From contig KZ992471.1 of the NCBI GenBank assembly GCA_003614735.1, positions 1-49,522 of the forward strand: DNA of 49,522 nt. The letters are read 5' to 3'. Position 1 is the stretch's first letter. Each line of letters starts with the position of its first letter. The position numbers were made by a program, and so were the translations under genes. Positions 11,225 through 43,731 of this stretch are shown piece by piece. The notes beneath the pieces were generated by a model. That model made no database searches and was not told where the DNA came from. It was given only the letters and a program-made list of their open reading frames with translations. The stretch is from Thamnocephalis sphaerospora (taxonomy: Eukaryota; Zoopagomycota; Zoopagomycetes; Zoopagales; Sigmoideomycetaceae).

Positions 11225-12811
11225 CTAGGCTGCGCCAAAGCTGATGATTTCGATGCTTTTTTTGTCATCAAGCAGACGAATCAGGCATGTAGCAAGTGAC
11301 GTGGAGAAAATTGATATTGGTGGTAGCGTAGGAAGACTCGGCAACTCGCCTCCGGTGGCAGTATCAACCAGCGCCATTGGCTGTTCTCTCTGATCCACCT
11401 CGTTTGTCAAACAAATGTGACCCAATACCGAGTTGTAGCTACGTTCAAGCGGTCGCCGGCGCTTACAGTGCACAGTACCGTCCCTATTGTAGGACACAAG
11501 ATGTCCGCCCAGATAAGTGACAAAGCCGCGGCGCGTCCGTGCAACGAACGGGGTGTCCGTCGGCAAAATTTTACATTGGACGGTGAATGGCGCACCCGAT
11601 TGATGAGCTGCTGTGGGCAGCGTGTGATGTAATAGTATGAACTGCTTTTCGGTGGTGACAGCAGTTAGCAGCATGTAATCGGTGCAGTCGATGTTGCTGC
11701 CGCCATCTTCGTGTAGTAAGGAGAACCTAGGCGATGGGTCACGGATGGGCGCTGGCGTGGTAATGCTTGCAGTATGCACCAATTGCGCAGGTTGGTCTAC
11801 AGCAAAGCGATAGAGGTACCAGCTGAACATGTTGCCCGTATTGCCCTGCATTGCTGCGCCATATACCGTGGCTATGTGGTCGTCCGTACGCACAAAGCAG
11901 CATTTGCTCAGCGTGCACGGGGCAACAATGCTAGGACATGCTACACCGCGCTCCAAATCGACCACCATCATCTCCGAGGGTGTATCGTCGTTGGCTGGCC
12001 TCATCGGCTGCTGAACCAATGCCCAGCGGTCACGAATTTCATACGGCACCATTGGACGACTCAGTTGAATGCTGCGCTTCAAGGATGGCTTACCGGTCTC
12101 CCAGACTTGCAACACCGATAGGTCGGTCATATACTGCGTCACAGAGAACCGACAGCCCATCCTGTGAATATGAGCGCCCAGACTGGTTTGCGCTGACTGA
12201 TCGCTCGCTCCAACCAGCTGTATAGGCACATGCATATCAGTGGCATTTGACGAGTCTGGCGAAATGATGCGCTCGCCATCTTGCTGGTCCTTGTACACAA
12301 GGTCACCATCAATGACATATGTTTTTTCAACTGCCGGCACTCCAGGCCACGTCGGATTACGAACACTGATCCCAGCCGGTGTGCTGTAACCAATATTCCA
12401 TCTGGTCGTATCAGCGACATTATTCGACAGGCAAAAGGTGCGGCGCACGCATCTTCCTTGGCGCAGATTGCGCTCGGTAAGCACTCGTCGCCGGAATACG
12501 TCCGGCCAGGGGATGCTTGCCCAAAAGTCACCAGTTTGCTCAGCTACAGTCCGCTCTTGAGACTCGTGCTGACTGCCAGTCCGCAAACACCAGTAGAGAA
12601 AGCTCATTTCGCGCTCCACGGTGTGCGGAGCAAAGACGCACATATAATAGCAACACCATAGTGCGACGTCACGCCAGATTGCAGCATGGAGTGTGCGGCA
12701 GGTTGCTGCCAGACACGCTGAGGCATAAGGGCCGATATAGCCAAGTAGGCGACACCTATCTTGCGCTGGAAGTATGCTCAATATGTATACGCACCTTGCG
12801 TCTGCGGCCAT
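11225..12811 (-). CDS. F-box-like protein, intronless, member 1
   Basis: Single exon of 528 residues from the ATG at 12811. The open frame continues to 12853, but the codon there is GTG, so the ATG is preferred. Residues about 8-55 (VYILSILPAQDRCRLLGYIG...LAATCRTLHAAIWRDVALW) have the helical F-box pattern, and the following WPDVFRRRVLTERN matches the region that often follows F-boxes in fungi. The remainder is rich in short strands with repeated aromatic and hydrophobic spacing, as in a beta-propeller-like substrate-binding part. It probably recruits substrates to an SCF ubiquitin ligase. Intronless in a region where most core genes have many introns; related in layout to the F-box gene at 14120. 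A TATATA lies at 12894-12899. Confidence 0.65.
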   Translation of the reverse strand: MAADARCVYILSILPAQDRCRLLGYIGPYASACLAATCRTLHAAIWRDVALWCCYYMCVFAPHTVEREMSFLYWCLRTGSQHESQERTVAEQTGDFWASIPWPDVFRRRVLTERNLRQGRCVRRTFCLSNNVADTTRWNIGYSTPAGISVRNPTWPGVPAVEKTYVIDGDLVYKDQQDGERIISPDSSNATDMHVPIQLVGASDQSAQTSLGAHIHRMGCRFSVTQYMTDLSVLQVWETGKPSLKRSIQLSRPMVPYEIRDRWALVQQPMRPANDDTPSEMMVVDLERGVACPSIVAPCTLSKCCFVRTDDHIATVYGAAMQGNTGNMFSWYLYRFAVDQPAQLVHTASITTPAPIRDPSPRFSLLHEDGGSNIDCTDYMLLTAVTTEKQFILLHHTLPTAAHQSGAPFTVQCKILPTDTPFVARTRRGFVTYLGGHLVSYNRDGTVHCKRRRPLERSYNSVLGHICLTNEVDQREQPMALVDTATGGELPSLPTLPPISIFSTSLATCLIRLLDDKKSIEIISFGAA

Positions 12812-13617
12812 GTCGCGGAAAGAGATGCTTGAACGGGTTACTGCAAAGGCCACTGTATGCTATGAGTCATATAACAGTTTGCAAACAATCAAGCATATAT
12901 AAACTGCGTCACCAAGTGACCAAGCTTTAAGCGCAGCAGCTACGAGTACGCGGTGTTTTATACACATCAATCGCTCGCTCAAAGTCTGGGCCGCAGTCCA
13001 TTGAAATACTAAGCAGTGCTGGCTTGCAAAACGTCAAACTGCACAGCAATATTACAGCGCAGCCTCATTTGGTTTCAAACGCGGCGTGGCGGGCTGGAAG
13101 GGTTGTCCAAGTTCCAGACACTGAGTATGAGCCCATCCAAGCAACTGGCGTCCATACCTATGCGGCTGTTGGAACGCGTGATGTCGCTGATAAAGCTGGC
13201 TGGTAGATCGCCCCAGCTCACGTGCTACCAATTCAAGCAGGCGGCTGGTCAGCAATAAGGTACTGCAAAAAGACCGTCACGCATCCTTACTGCCACAGTG
13301 CCGCGCAGCTGAGCTTTGAACATGAGTACTGTCAGGCTTGGGGCGTTTGATTGGCTTTGTAGGTGGTTGCACAGCAAGCTGCTCCTGGCGCCAGCGTACA
13401 CCTATCATAACGCGCTGGCAAAAGATGTCGAATTAGTTTGCACAGCTGACCAGTGCGCTATAATCAACCAAATCGGGACTGTGATGATAACTGTCTGGCA
13501 TGGCGGTCCAGCCCAGCGTCTGCCTGAAAAGGCGGTGCTGGGAAGACATCTCGCTTATACGTTGTATTGCTCGTTGGTAGCGTGATCCACGCGAGCGAAT
13601 AAATGTGAACCATTTTG
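12812..13617. other. Intergenic region between F-box genes
   Basis: ORFs of 60-89 codons occur on both strands at 13016-13258 and 13316-13585, without recognisable domains. They may be fragments of older gene copies, but I cannot support a gene. Confidence 0.4.
12894..12899. promoter_or_regulatory. TATATA upstream of F-box gene 1
   Basis: A TATATA core in the context AGCATATATAAAC, 83 bases upstream of the ATG at 12811; it reads the same on both strands, so orientation is not informative. Confidence 0.4.
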
Positions 13618-13960
13618 CGTTGTTGCCACCGCCGGTCGTTGGTCCGATCGCTCTCCGCCGCCGTACTCATATATGTTAACCCAGCGCTCTTTTACCTCCG
13701 CCATCAGTATGCGCGCGTAGCAGCGTAGCTATAAAAGCCTTGCCACCGCGCGCCAGCAGAGTAAACGGCAGACATTCCTTTGCACATTTCTTCCTTTCGT
13801 GTCGCGCTCCAGCGCTCCATCTAGTATAATGCATCAATCTCATCGGGCTGCCGTAGCGTACCGCTTCGTGTCTGTCCCGGCAGTTCCTTGCAACCTCGTT
13901 AAGGCTACTCAGCCCAACTGCGTTAGCACCGACCCCCTTAGCGTAGACTTGCATTAGCGT
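13618..13960 (-). repeat. F-box-linked repeat, copy A
   Basis: About 340 bases that match, in inverted orientation, 15890-16247 (copy B) along nearly their whole length. The best blocks are GACCGGCGGTGGCAA, GGCTTTTATAGC, GGGACAGAC and AACGAGGT-GCAAGG. The part nearest the F-box gene also matches copy C. Copy A carries TATAAAAG at 13730-13737 on the plus strand, pointing at the F-box gene at 14120, so it may supply that gene's promoter. A 42-codon ORF (13829-13957, plus) is not kept in the other copies. Confidence 0.75.
13730..13737 (+). promoter_or_regulatory. TATA box in repeat copy A
   Basis: TATAAAAG, conserved in copy B in the mirrored position (16127-16134, minus). It lies 383 bases upstream of the preferred start of F-box gene 2, which is far for a direct core promoter unless the leader is long. 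Confidence 0.45.
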
Positions 13961-14119
13961 GGTCGCACAGAGGGTATGGATGCGCAGGGAGTGATTCTAA
14001 CGAGTTCATAATGCCTACGGTCAAGCCGGTATGTGGCTCTAATTTGAGAGGATCTAGACCACACAGCTATGGTAGCACGCCATGCCTCATCACCTCTTCT
14101 TTGTTTTGCCTGCGCCACC

Positions 14120-15622
14120 ATGAACAGAGTGTCCGCAGAAATTGTCTACCGTATTGTCTACGTCTCCGACGACGAAGCTGCGCTTGTTGCACTGGCTGCC
14201 ACGTCGCGCTGGCTGTATGCTTGCGTGGCAGCACAGCGCAAGCTATGGCGTTTACGCTTTGAGCGTGACTTTCCCAAGCAGGACGAGAATGAGCTGCGCT
14301 GGCTGCGGCTGTATGCACGGACTCATCTGGCCCACCTGCTGTTTGCAGAAGAGCAGCAGAGGGCACTTTCTCTGACAGACGAGCTGCTTGACTGGTTTCG
14401 CGCCTACTGCAATCGATGCGCAACCGAGTATCGCTGGCGCCATAAACTATACACAGCGCATCAACCTAAACAGACTACTGGTACGCATGTCGGAGGCGTA
14501 CGCCTGCAAAGCATGATCATTTCCAAACACGCAGTACAATACATGCGCGTTTTATCGCAGCGGATCCTGGCACCGCACCAGCGGCCAGTATGGATTATCG
14601 AGCAACCATGCTGGGATGGCGTGGATGTGCACGATTTGGTCGCTAAAGAGAAGCAATATTCCGACGAGTATCTGATCGTTTCCGTCGGACCACGCAACAC
14701 ATCGCCACGCAGTGCGATCACGCCTGTTAAATCTACCAATACCACATTGTATGCCTGGCATCTGAACGCACTCCATCTACCACCACACCTTATCATGAGC
14801 AATTTCTCGGGCAATGTTAGCCTATACAATAACTGGCTAGTGGTTCACAAGCATTTCATGGATGACAACATTCCAGGCACCACGCTTGTATTCGACCTTG
14901 CCAAGCGCACAGCTCGTCCCGGGATCATAGAGGGGGGAACGAGCAAACTGCATATACAGCAAGCCACCGAGAATAGCATTCGTCTTTTGTGGAGAGACAA
15001 GATCAAGGAAAAAGAGAGTAATGCGACGATATCATGGCGACTCTGGGATTTTACGCCGGATCGCGCACCGCCAACACAGTGCCTGGCAGTCTGCGAGACA
15101 CAGTGCCTGGCAGTCTATGGGAGACTATTCTATACTAGAGATTCTTTTGTGAAGACATGTCGCATTGATAATAGCAGGCTTATCACTTTTAGTGGTGGTT
15201 ACCGGAAACGTTCTGAAAATTCCATGTCGCCAACTATCGTATTGATGGAAATCACGGAGAGTAATACTGGCGTGACTATGAAGGAGAAGTGGTCGCTTGC
15301 ACAGGAGCTGCTCCTTATAAGACCAATTGTATCGCGAGACCTGCTCCTTGTAACTCTGTCTCCTGAAAATCATAAGCTATTGGACTTGAGCGATGGATCA
15401 CCAGTTCACGACATATCAATACCCACGCTATATTGCTGGTTAGAGTCTGGTCTTTATCCATTGCGGAGCCAGTGGGCGAACATGGATGAAAATAGCACAC
15501 GGAAGCAACCAGATGCCAGCCATGTATATTCTTTAATGGTGTTTACGTCTTGTTTGGCATCGCCAAATGCCAAACAGGTCCGTGTTAACCGTAAGCTTAC
15601 TATGGCTGACTATTCTCTTTGA
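14120..15622 (+). CDS. F-box-like protein, intronless, member 2
   Basis: Single exon of 500 residues. The ATG at 14120 (context CGCCACCATGA) is preferred over the in-frame ATG at 14069 because it directly precedes the F-box: MNRVSAEIVYRIVYVSDDEA...LAATSRWLYACVAAQRKLWR (residues 1-45). About residues 87-108 (WFRAYCNRCATEYRWRHKLY) are the same kind of post-F-box helix seen in the gene at 11225. The remainder has propeller-like strand spacing. A 24-base tandem duplication at 15074-15121 repeats TQCLAV. Likely an SCF substrate adaptor; substrate unknown. Flanked by inverted repeat copies A and B. Confidence 0.65.
   Translation: MNRVSAEIVYRIVYVSDDEAALVALAATSRWLYACVAAQRKLWRLRFERDFPKQDENELRWLRLYARTHLAHLLFAEEQQRALSLTDELLDWFRAYCNRCATEYRWRHKLYTAHQPKQTTGTHVGGVRLQSMIISKHAVQYMRVLSQRILAPHQRPVWIIEQPCWDGVDVHDLVAKEKQYSDEYLIVSVGPRNTSPRSAITPVKSTNTTLYAWHLNALHLPPHLIMSNFSGNVSLYNNWLVVHKHFMDDNIPGTTLVFDLAKRTARPGIIEGGTSKLHIQQATENSIRLLWRDKIKEKESNATISWRLWDFTPDRAPPTQCLAVCETQCLAVYGRLFYTRDSFVKTCRIDNSRLITFSGGYRKRSENSMSPTIVLMEITESNTGVTMKEKWSLAQELLLIRPIVSRDLLLVTLSPENHKLLDLSDGSPVHDISIPTLYCWLESGLYPLRSQWANMDENSTRKQPDASHVYSLMVFTSCLASPNAKQVRVNRKLTMADYSL
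15074..15121 (+). repeat. 24 bp in-frame tandem duplication
   Basis: The 19-base word ACACAGTGCCTGGCAGTCT occurs at 15074-15092 and again at 15098-15116, period 24, inside F-box gene 2. It keeps the frame and doubles TQCLAV, pointing to a recent slippage event. Confidence 0.85.
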
Positions 15623-15889
15623 TGTTGGCAAGAGCATACGACAATGAGGGCCGATACCTGTTTGCTGTCGTAAACAAGGCACAGCGCGGCAGCGGTTGGC
15701 TGCTATTGTAATGTGCGGCCCCGGCTAGTAGTACATACACACACCTCTCTCTGTTAACACGTCCCGGACCTCTTCCTCCGTTACGACCTAACGCAGGTGT
15801 AACAGCGGGCTAGTGCAAGGCATATTAAATGTACTTTATCGCTGCTCGGCCGCCGCCGCAGTAGTAGACTTCAAATCGATTTAATGACA

Positions 15890-16247
15890 TACGCTGTTGC
15901 AAGCCTACGTTAAGGGGAGTCGGTACTAGCGCAGAGAGGGCTGGGTAATCTCAACGAGGTCGCAAGGGAACTGCTGGGACAGACGTGAGCTGCACGCTAC
16001 CGACAGTTCAGAGTCGTAAAAGAGAGAAAGAGAGAGGGGCGCAGAAGTGGTGCAGAGAGTATGGCGCTGAAGGAAGGAACATGCAAAGGGGCTTCTCGTT
16101 TATTCTGTTGGCGTGCGGTGGCGAGGCTTTTATAGCCGAGCCGCTGCGCGCGTGTACTAACGGCGGAGGTAACAGAGCGTTGGGTTAACATATACGGCAC
16201 GACGGCGGAGAGTGATCGAGCCAATGACCGGCGGTGGCAATAACGCG
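15890..16247 (+). repeat. F-box-linked repeat, copy B
   Basis: Inverted match of copy A (13618-13960), about 358 bases with scattered substitutions, many of them transitions, and small indels. It contains TATAAAAG on the minus strand (16127-16134). Together with copy A it frames 1.9 kb holding F-box gene 2. Outer ends do not show an obvious target-site duplication. Confidence 0.75.
16127..16134 (-). promoter_or_regulatory. TATA box in repeat copy B
   Basis: TATAAAAG on the minus strand, the mirrored counterpart of 13730-13737 in copy A. No gene on the minus strand follows it, so it may be a relic. Confidence 0.35.
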
Positions 16248-17219
16248 ATTACCACGACTTGAACAGCCCAGCAATACGCCCTGCCTTTGCTTACATCGCG
16301 TATATACGTGGCGAAAGACCAAAAACAGAAACAGCAGCAGCAGCAACAGCGTACGCCAGAGCAAGCTAAACTTGAAAGAGTGCCACACAGCAAGCACTGC
16401 AGCTGCCGTTTCACCAGCAGGAGGCCTGGGCTTTTTTACACGAGACTAGGTGCTGTGGTCTGGATCGATTCACGGCTTCCTATTCTTCCCACGAAGCTAC
16501 GCGTGGTAGCGTCCAGTTGCTGTGGGGCATCCTCGTTGAAGGGCGCCACATGGGTAGAGTGCCAATTTAGGTGAGTGACGGTGGAGGCACGTGGCAAAAA
16601 AGAAAACGGAATGTGAACGCACAGAGCCGTTGTGTTGCGCAAACACCAAGTTGGGCTGCCACGCGGAATTGGACATGGCTCGGGCCCACTGCGCTCTCGT
16701 CGGTGCAAATCCCGTGAGCGGGAACTAGGCCTTTATCGCTTGTTTCCCATCGCGCTGGACCGTGGATTTCTTGCAAACTAGATGCCGCTACACTTGCGCT
16801 GCCATTTTCGCAGCCCGTAGCGGCCACGTGGGAGCAATACAGACTAGGATTACTGCTGTGTTGTAAGAAGTAGCTAGACATTGCTGGCGCCATCGCTGTC
16901 AACTTCTTTTCTCTGAGAGGCCCCAAGCATCTTTTTGCTGTTTTGCTAGCAATACACTAGTACTGCTGACTCAACATTCATAGCAAGACGCAGAACATCT
17001 CTTGCTCTACAGGCCAGCTCTGCCAAAGGCTCGTGCGTGTCTTCCATGTGTCCTGGTCCGTAGTTGTTACAACGTGGGCGCTGTCTCTTCTGCTTGCTCC
17101 AACCACATTGAACGCACCATACTTTGGTGCGGCAAATGGAAAAATAGGTAACGTCCATATCGAGTAATGCCGCCACCTGCACTGCCGTGGCACCTGCACG
17201 CACGTGCGCAAATACGCCG
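16248..17219. other. Intergenic region
   Basis: About 970 bases with a short CAG-type run near 16331-16345 and ORFs of 70-119 codons on the minus strand that lack recognisable features. No supported gene. Confidence 0.45.
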
Positions 17220-43267: not shown

Positions 43268-43573
43268 GGTCGGGCAGAGTGTCGGTGTTGGGAGCAAAGG
43301 AGCGTCGCAGGCGTAGCAGACGGTGGTACGCCAACACTGACTGGCTTATCCAGCTGGCTTTGTGATTCGCACTTTGCCACATACATCGTCACTGCAACAA
43401 CAACAAACGAGCGATGGCTTGCCGCGGTATCGCCTCACCATTTGGTATGCTATAGGACTATATTTTTGGCAGGGTTCTTGTTTCGCCAGGCGCAGCCAAC
43501 AGCGCTCAATAGACAGCATGCACGGAGAATCGACCGCTTGCTGTATTCGCTATTCAGATTGTATCTGCGCGGT

Positions 43574-43731
43574 GCCTTTTGTGTTCCATCTAACGCATTG
43601 CATCAATCCTTTCCGGCTGTTCAAAGCATACCGCTTCACATCTATCCAAACAGTCTCATTGCAATCTCGTTAAGACCATTCACACTTACAACAGCTAGCG
43701 CTGACTCTCTTGACACAAGTTTGCAATAATG
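43574..43731 (-). repeat. F-box-linked repeat, copy C (truncated)
   Basis: Matches the gene-proximal half of copy A (about 13799-13958) in the same orientation. Shared blocks are CCATCTA, GCATCAATC, TACCGCTTC, CTCGTTAAG and GACTTGCA/AGTTTGCA. Most differences are G-to-A or C-to-T. A weaker match (CAGCGCTC) extends to about 43505. It is 27 kb from the other copies, so the repeat is dispersed. Confidence 0.55.

Follow-up and report, generated by a model that had tools for sequence, protein, structure and literature searches.

Two inverted repeat copies, A and B, frame an F-box-like gene in the genome of Thamnocephalis sphaerospora, and they are most likely two separate insertions of one old, short, dispersed repeat. 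We put the probability at roughly three in four that they are independent insertions of a non-coding element ~340 bp long whose inverted ends are short, probably a non-autonomous DNA transposon. The earlier proposal of a non-autonomous mobile element is supported in general terms, by ~36 dispersed places in the genome, by ends that the copies share, and by an empty site for A. The proposal that the element carried the gene is not, and carriage by a transposon thereby drops out as an account of how a large F-box-like family expanded in this early-diverging mycoparasite.

T. sphaerospora is a mycoparasitic fungus and is among the mycoparasites sequenced from single cells in its genome paper. The term "F-box" is absent from the main text of that paper, and the repeat is absent from the titles and abstract openings of the papers found on T. 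sphaerospora and on F-box expansion in Zoopagomycota.

The inverted pair and the gene between its copies

The window, that is the whole stretch of 49,522 bases that was analysed, contains the following features:

11225..12811, reverse strand: F-box-like gene of subfamily F2, the divergent neighbour (528 aa; Pfam F-box-like E 0.88)
13500..13603, forward strand: conserved ~104 bp block, 14 bp left of A, with a sharp right end, GCGAATAAA
13618..13960, forward strand: repeat copy A, a full-length element (left end CGTTGTTGCC, right end GCATTAGCG)
13730..13737, forward strand: TATAAAAG in copy A
14120..15622, forward strand: F-box-like gene of subfamily F1 (500 aa from the ATG common to paralogues)
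15891..16245, reverse strand: repeat copy B, a full-length element of a different subgroup from A
16127..16134, reverse strand: TATAAAAG in copy B
43566..43728, forward strand: third copy, decayed, right half only, ~280 bp past the 3' end of the ATG22 gene

In a search against the window, A aligns with B (16245-15891) on opposite strands with 73.5% identity over 362 aligned columns (E 7e-51). With both strands counted, TATAAAAG occurs twice in the window, once in A and once in B, pointing inward in both. The third copy matches positions 180-340 of the repeat-family profile (E 1.3e-18). Three observations of the earlier note are thereby confirmed: two inverted copies framing one gene, an inward-pointing TATAAAAG kept in both, and a decayed copy elsewhere in the window.

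The F1 gene is a single open frame (14069-15622) with an upstream in-frame ATG at 14069. The paralogues that were read have the start CACCATGAACAGAGTG in common; in the window it is the ATG at 14120, from which the previously given length of 500 residues holds. Its description as an F-box gene is indirect: of the 15 proteins in the alignment of its family, four match PF12937 F-box-like, with a best E of 1e-5, and several database names of family proteins read F-box domain-containing, while the F1 protein of the window has no match in Pfam at E<=1. The label is plausible for this protein, judging from its relatives. In the genome, the F1 protein has 86 matches and the F2 protein 81. The subtilase and ATG22 genes of the window are single open frames too, so the lack of introns, for which the earlier note had sought a reason, needs no special cause.

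A deposited protein matching 14069-15622 has 318 residues (98% identity over 59% of the query), so its gene model seems shorter than the open frame. Inside the F1 gene, positions 15074-15121 are an in-frame 24-base tandem duplication.

A dispersed repeat with short inverted ends

The assembly searched is a single-cell assembly of 14,455,036 bases in 594 contigs. Of the 34 rows for query 13500-14100, 20 belong to the repeat (including A and B), 13 to the 104-bp block and one to the 5' part of the gene itself; the 20 rows for query 15880-16260 include four new places. Pattern searches for the left end and for the right end had 12 and 22 matches, with 0 for a backward control, and added one and 10 new places, respectively (a pair on contig C4 counts as one). 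A diverged copy used as query gave four rows and one new place, on C223. Of these places, C298, C426, C129:31053 and C4 were counted from the end motif alone, and C223 from the search row alone; all eight end-motif places that were read match the family profile. Two further copies beyond the 36, C368:6549-6877 and the decayed copy of the window, were seen by profile only. Place counts from these searches are lower bounds.

The majority ends are CGYTGTTGC ... GCAACASCG, inverted over 8-9 bp, with CGYTGTTGCC as the longer left form and GCTTGCAACASCG as the right one. Among 11 near-complete copies, from which the profile was built, identity falls from 0.78-0.83 in the first 150 bp to 0.64-0.71 in the middle and rises again to 0.75-0.82 in the last 70 bp. 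The higher conservation of the first 150 bp could also mean that this promoter-like half is functional. TATAAAA is intact in six of the 11, and many copies are truncated. By eye, the alignment of the 11 copies has no conserved ATG and many indels.

Further properties speak against a mobile element. Its inverted ends span just 8-9 bp, and in the 10 copies with both ends they are exact on the left in six, on the right in five and on both sides in two. Target-site duplications, which had been suggested as a check, were sought at the ends of 10 copies, and in an aggregate test no excess was convincing (the best value, 0.19, came at k=2 and an odd offset). However, the copies differ by 12-31% from their own best match, so old duplications are possibly blurred. 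With its short, non-coding sequence of ~340 bp and terminal inverted repeats, which at 8-9 bp in the majority form are short for a MITE, the element behaves like a MITE. It is not filed as one because no target-site duplication was found in the 10 copies, perhaps owing to their age.

Solo LTRs of fungal LTR retrotransposons share with the repeat TGTTG...CAACA near the ends, a TATA box and length. One alternative to the transposon reading is that the repeat is a solo LTR left by an LTR retrotransposon since lost, with TGTTG...CAACA lying inside the ends, an AATAAA ~30 bp on from the TATA box, and a length of ~340 bp in its favour. We consider it unlikely. The ends common to the copies extend outside TG...CA (CGY before it, and often CCG or GCG after it), and there is no 4-6 bp duplication. 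There are 0 matches to the integrase domain PF00665 in the single-cell assembly of 594 contigs, in which several of the reverse-transcriptase matches (six, four of them over the cut-off) lie near contig ends. The 0 matches to RVT_2 (PF07727) are a weak absence, as the control search was likewise without a match. The sole pair of copies in direct order, on C338, encloses a weak kinase-like match, and neither of the two frames scanned there has a gag-pol domain; the stretch read there holds no F1 or F2 match.

The element also resembles mimps, MITEs of Fusarium oxysporum, which are 200-220 bp long, have a TA target and end in inverted repeats of ~27 bp (PMC3599309). Like them, the repeat is short, non-coding, diversified and apparently inactive, with inverted ends, and lies beside a special gene set, in some cases in promoters (PMC3599309). 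Unlike them, it is ~340 bp long, has ends of 8-9 bp and no target duplication seen, and is in a promoter position in two of 13 F-box-linked copies. That paper also describes a mini-cluster with inverted repeats on either side, and promoter deletions that revealed no direct function of the mimp (PMC3599309).

RNA was considered as well. The single match to a known RNA gene in 12900-16900 is below threshold and lies at 14182-14246, outside A and B. The predicted fold has a covariation term of -0.65 of -37.75 kcal/mol and both-sided change in 11 of 62 pairs, leaving a structured RNA unsupported.

Separate kinship and probable arrival of A and B

A and B each have nearer kin elsewhere than each other. 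The best match of A is on C338 (C338b, 81.3%) and that of B on C151 (87.8%), and B forms a subgroup with C151, C347 and C540, which has a longer middle. In a tree of 18 copies, forcing A and B into one clade costs 86 log-likelihood units, and such a clade is rejected. A simple local inverted duplication is ruled out by this nearer kinship elsewhere.

The same evidence bears on the carrier idea raised in the earlier note, in which a composite transposon of 2.6 kb, with A and B as its long inverted ends, moved the F-box gene as a whole. The inverted layout, the equality of the outer ends and the presence of 13 of 35 copies within 1 kb of an F-box-like match would fit such a carrier. However, A and B are less alike (73.5%) than either is to its best match, their clade is rejected, and a copy at the 5' place of A was found in 0 of eight other F1 loci (C479, C89, C294, C591, two on C162, C12 and C160; ~420-450 bp of 5' flank were read in five of them, L060-L064, and C479, C12 and C160 were checked by profile). 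The sole other F-box-like gene found with a copy on each side, on C368, has copies that point outward where A and B point inward, so that its outer ends are the element's opposite ends. Neither a recurring A-gene-B unit nor an empty site for the whole was found, and we regard a composite transposon as extremely unlikely.

An empty site was found for A on its own. On C479, the same divergent pair of F2 and F1 genes lies closer together and without A. Up to the junction, the left flank of A fits C479 better than all 2000 shuffles and all 2000 random pieces of the window, at each of the lengths 30, 45 and 60 bp. In pairwise alignments the right flank resumes in C479 directly at the junction; a multiple alignment left it unplaced. 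The paralogue is ~76% identical, and its lack of A could conceivably reflect loss there. A probably entered between the F-box-like gene and an upstream block that is older than A. Elsewhere, on C379, a copy follows an F2 gene on its 3' side, and the homology to the 3' flanks of other F2 genes breaks off at the left end of the element.

For independent insertion of a short element we infer a DNA-transposon mechanism and an order of events, as we would any effect on transcription. The element would have been mobilised by a transposase encoded elsewhere. A would have landed upstream of the F1 gene, between the older block and the start codon, and B, from the other subgroup, past the stop codon in opposite orientation. 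The F-box-like genes would have multiplied by duplication without need of the repeat.

Proximity to F-box-like genes

The earlier note held that wide occurrence with no link to F-box genes would tell against a carrier. The repeat is indeed widespread, with no F-box-like match within 3 kb of 22 of 35 copies, but proximity exceeds expectation: 13 of the 35 lie within 1 kb of any of 167 F-box-like matches, against 1.0 expected, and 7 of 29 do so when the window and four other copies 3' of F1 genes are left out. The set of 35 omits C223, the second copy on C368 and the decayed copy of the window, and binomial P values for proximity are too strong, as they assume independent copies. Of the 35, 16 lie within 2 kb of a contig end, against 16% expected (the lengths of three contigs are lacking), and 36 of the 167 F-box-like matches start within 2 kb of the low contig end, against 8% expected. 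A shared gathering in poorly assembled stretches can explain the proximity without targeting. The old short repeat crowds the stretches that fast-growing gene families also occupy. For a Helicase_C control of 57 matches, the numbers are small: 0 of 36 copies lie within 3 kb (0.81 expected) and one within 5 kb (1.31 expected). Helicase matches on C278 and C535 have identical coordinates and scores, which hints at redundant contigs.

Another reading makes the repeat a promoter-plus-leader module, exchanged between expanded families (F-box-like, kinase-like and kelch) and kept by selection. It agrees with the first 150 bp and the right end being most conserved, and with three copies that precede gene starts in the same orientation: A and the copy on C297 before F-box-like genes and, probably, the copy on C150 before a kinase-like gene, although the kinase matches are below the Pfam cut-off. 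It agrees also with a chimera at C369:15200-16000 (L049), where the right half of the repeat is fused to the tail of the 104-bp block (33/40 identical to the C403 block); the halves of the repeat are exchangeable on this evidence. However, of the 13 F-box-linked copies, two (A and C297) lie before a gene start and point at it, five point at the 3' end of an F1 gene, and the remainder are at 3' ends or point away. This placement of 11 of the 13, a TATAAAA intact in just six of the 11 near-complete copies and the many truncations make the module quite unlikely. With two copies in position, and 22 of 35 away from any F-box-like match, a role for it in the growth of the family, which the earlier note had suggested, is unsupported.

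The 104-bp block itself has 13 genome matches, some weak. It is found upstream of several F2 genes (mostly at ~335-390 bp, at 153 on C157 and at 689 in the window) and points away, and it is also found near kinase-like and kelch genes. It is possibly an older promoter, shared two-way.

Where the 3' flank of an F1 gene could be read, a copy is present in five of 10 cases (the window, C162, C165, C479 and C12; the gene on C162 is a fragment at the contig start), ~170-515 bp beyond the stop and with the TATA side facing the gene in all five. No 3' copy was found on C89, C233, two convergent genes on C162, or C160 (510-700 bp read for the first four). Co-duplication of the five with the gene was rejected, as they do not form one clade (p-AU 1.9e-4, for a group chosen after the data were seen). 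Repeated landing beside F1 genes is therefore likelier than a single landing that was then duplicated along with the gene, though the five may instead have an older, paraphyletic origin. A portable antisense promoter near genes of this lineage-specific subfamily, tuning the expanded F-box set, would suit the facing TATA side, but TATAAAAG is intact in just two of the five (B and C479), which lowers the odds of this reading to very unlikely.

Younger sequences lie beside some copies. A younger repeat (~93% identical) abuts truncated copies on C338 and C540 (L009:2160-2628, L021:4441-4909 and L015:7229-7615), and a young common stretch of 115 bp (92%) lies beside two decayed copies (L022:1123-1237 and L024:5149-5263).
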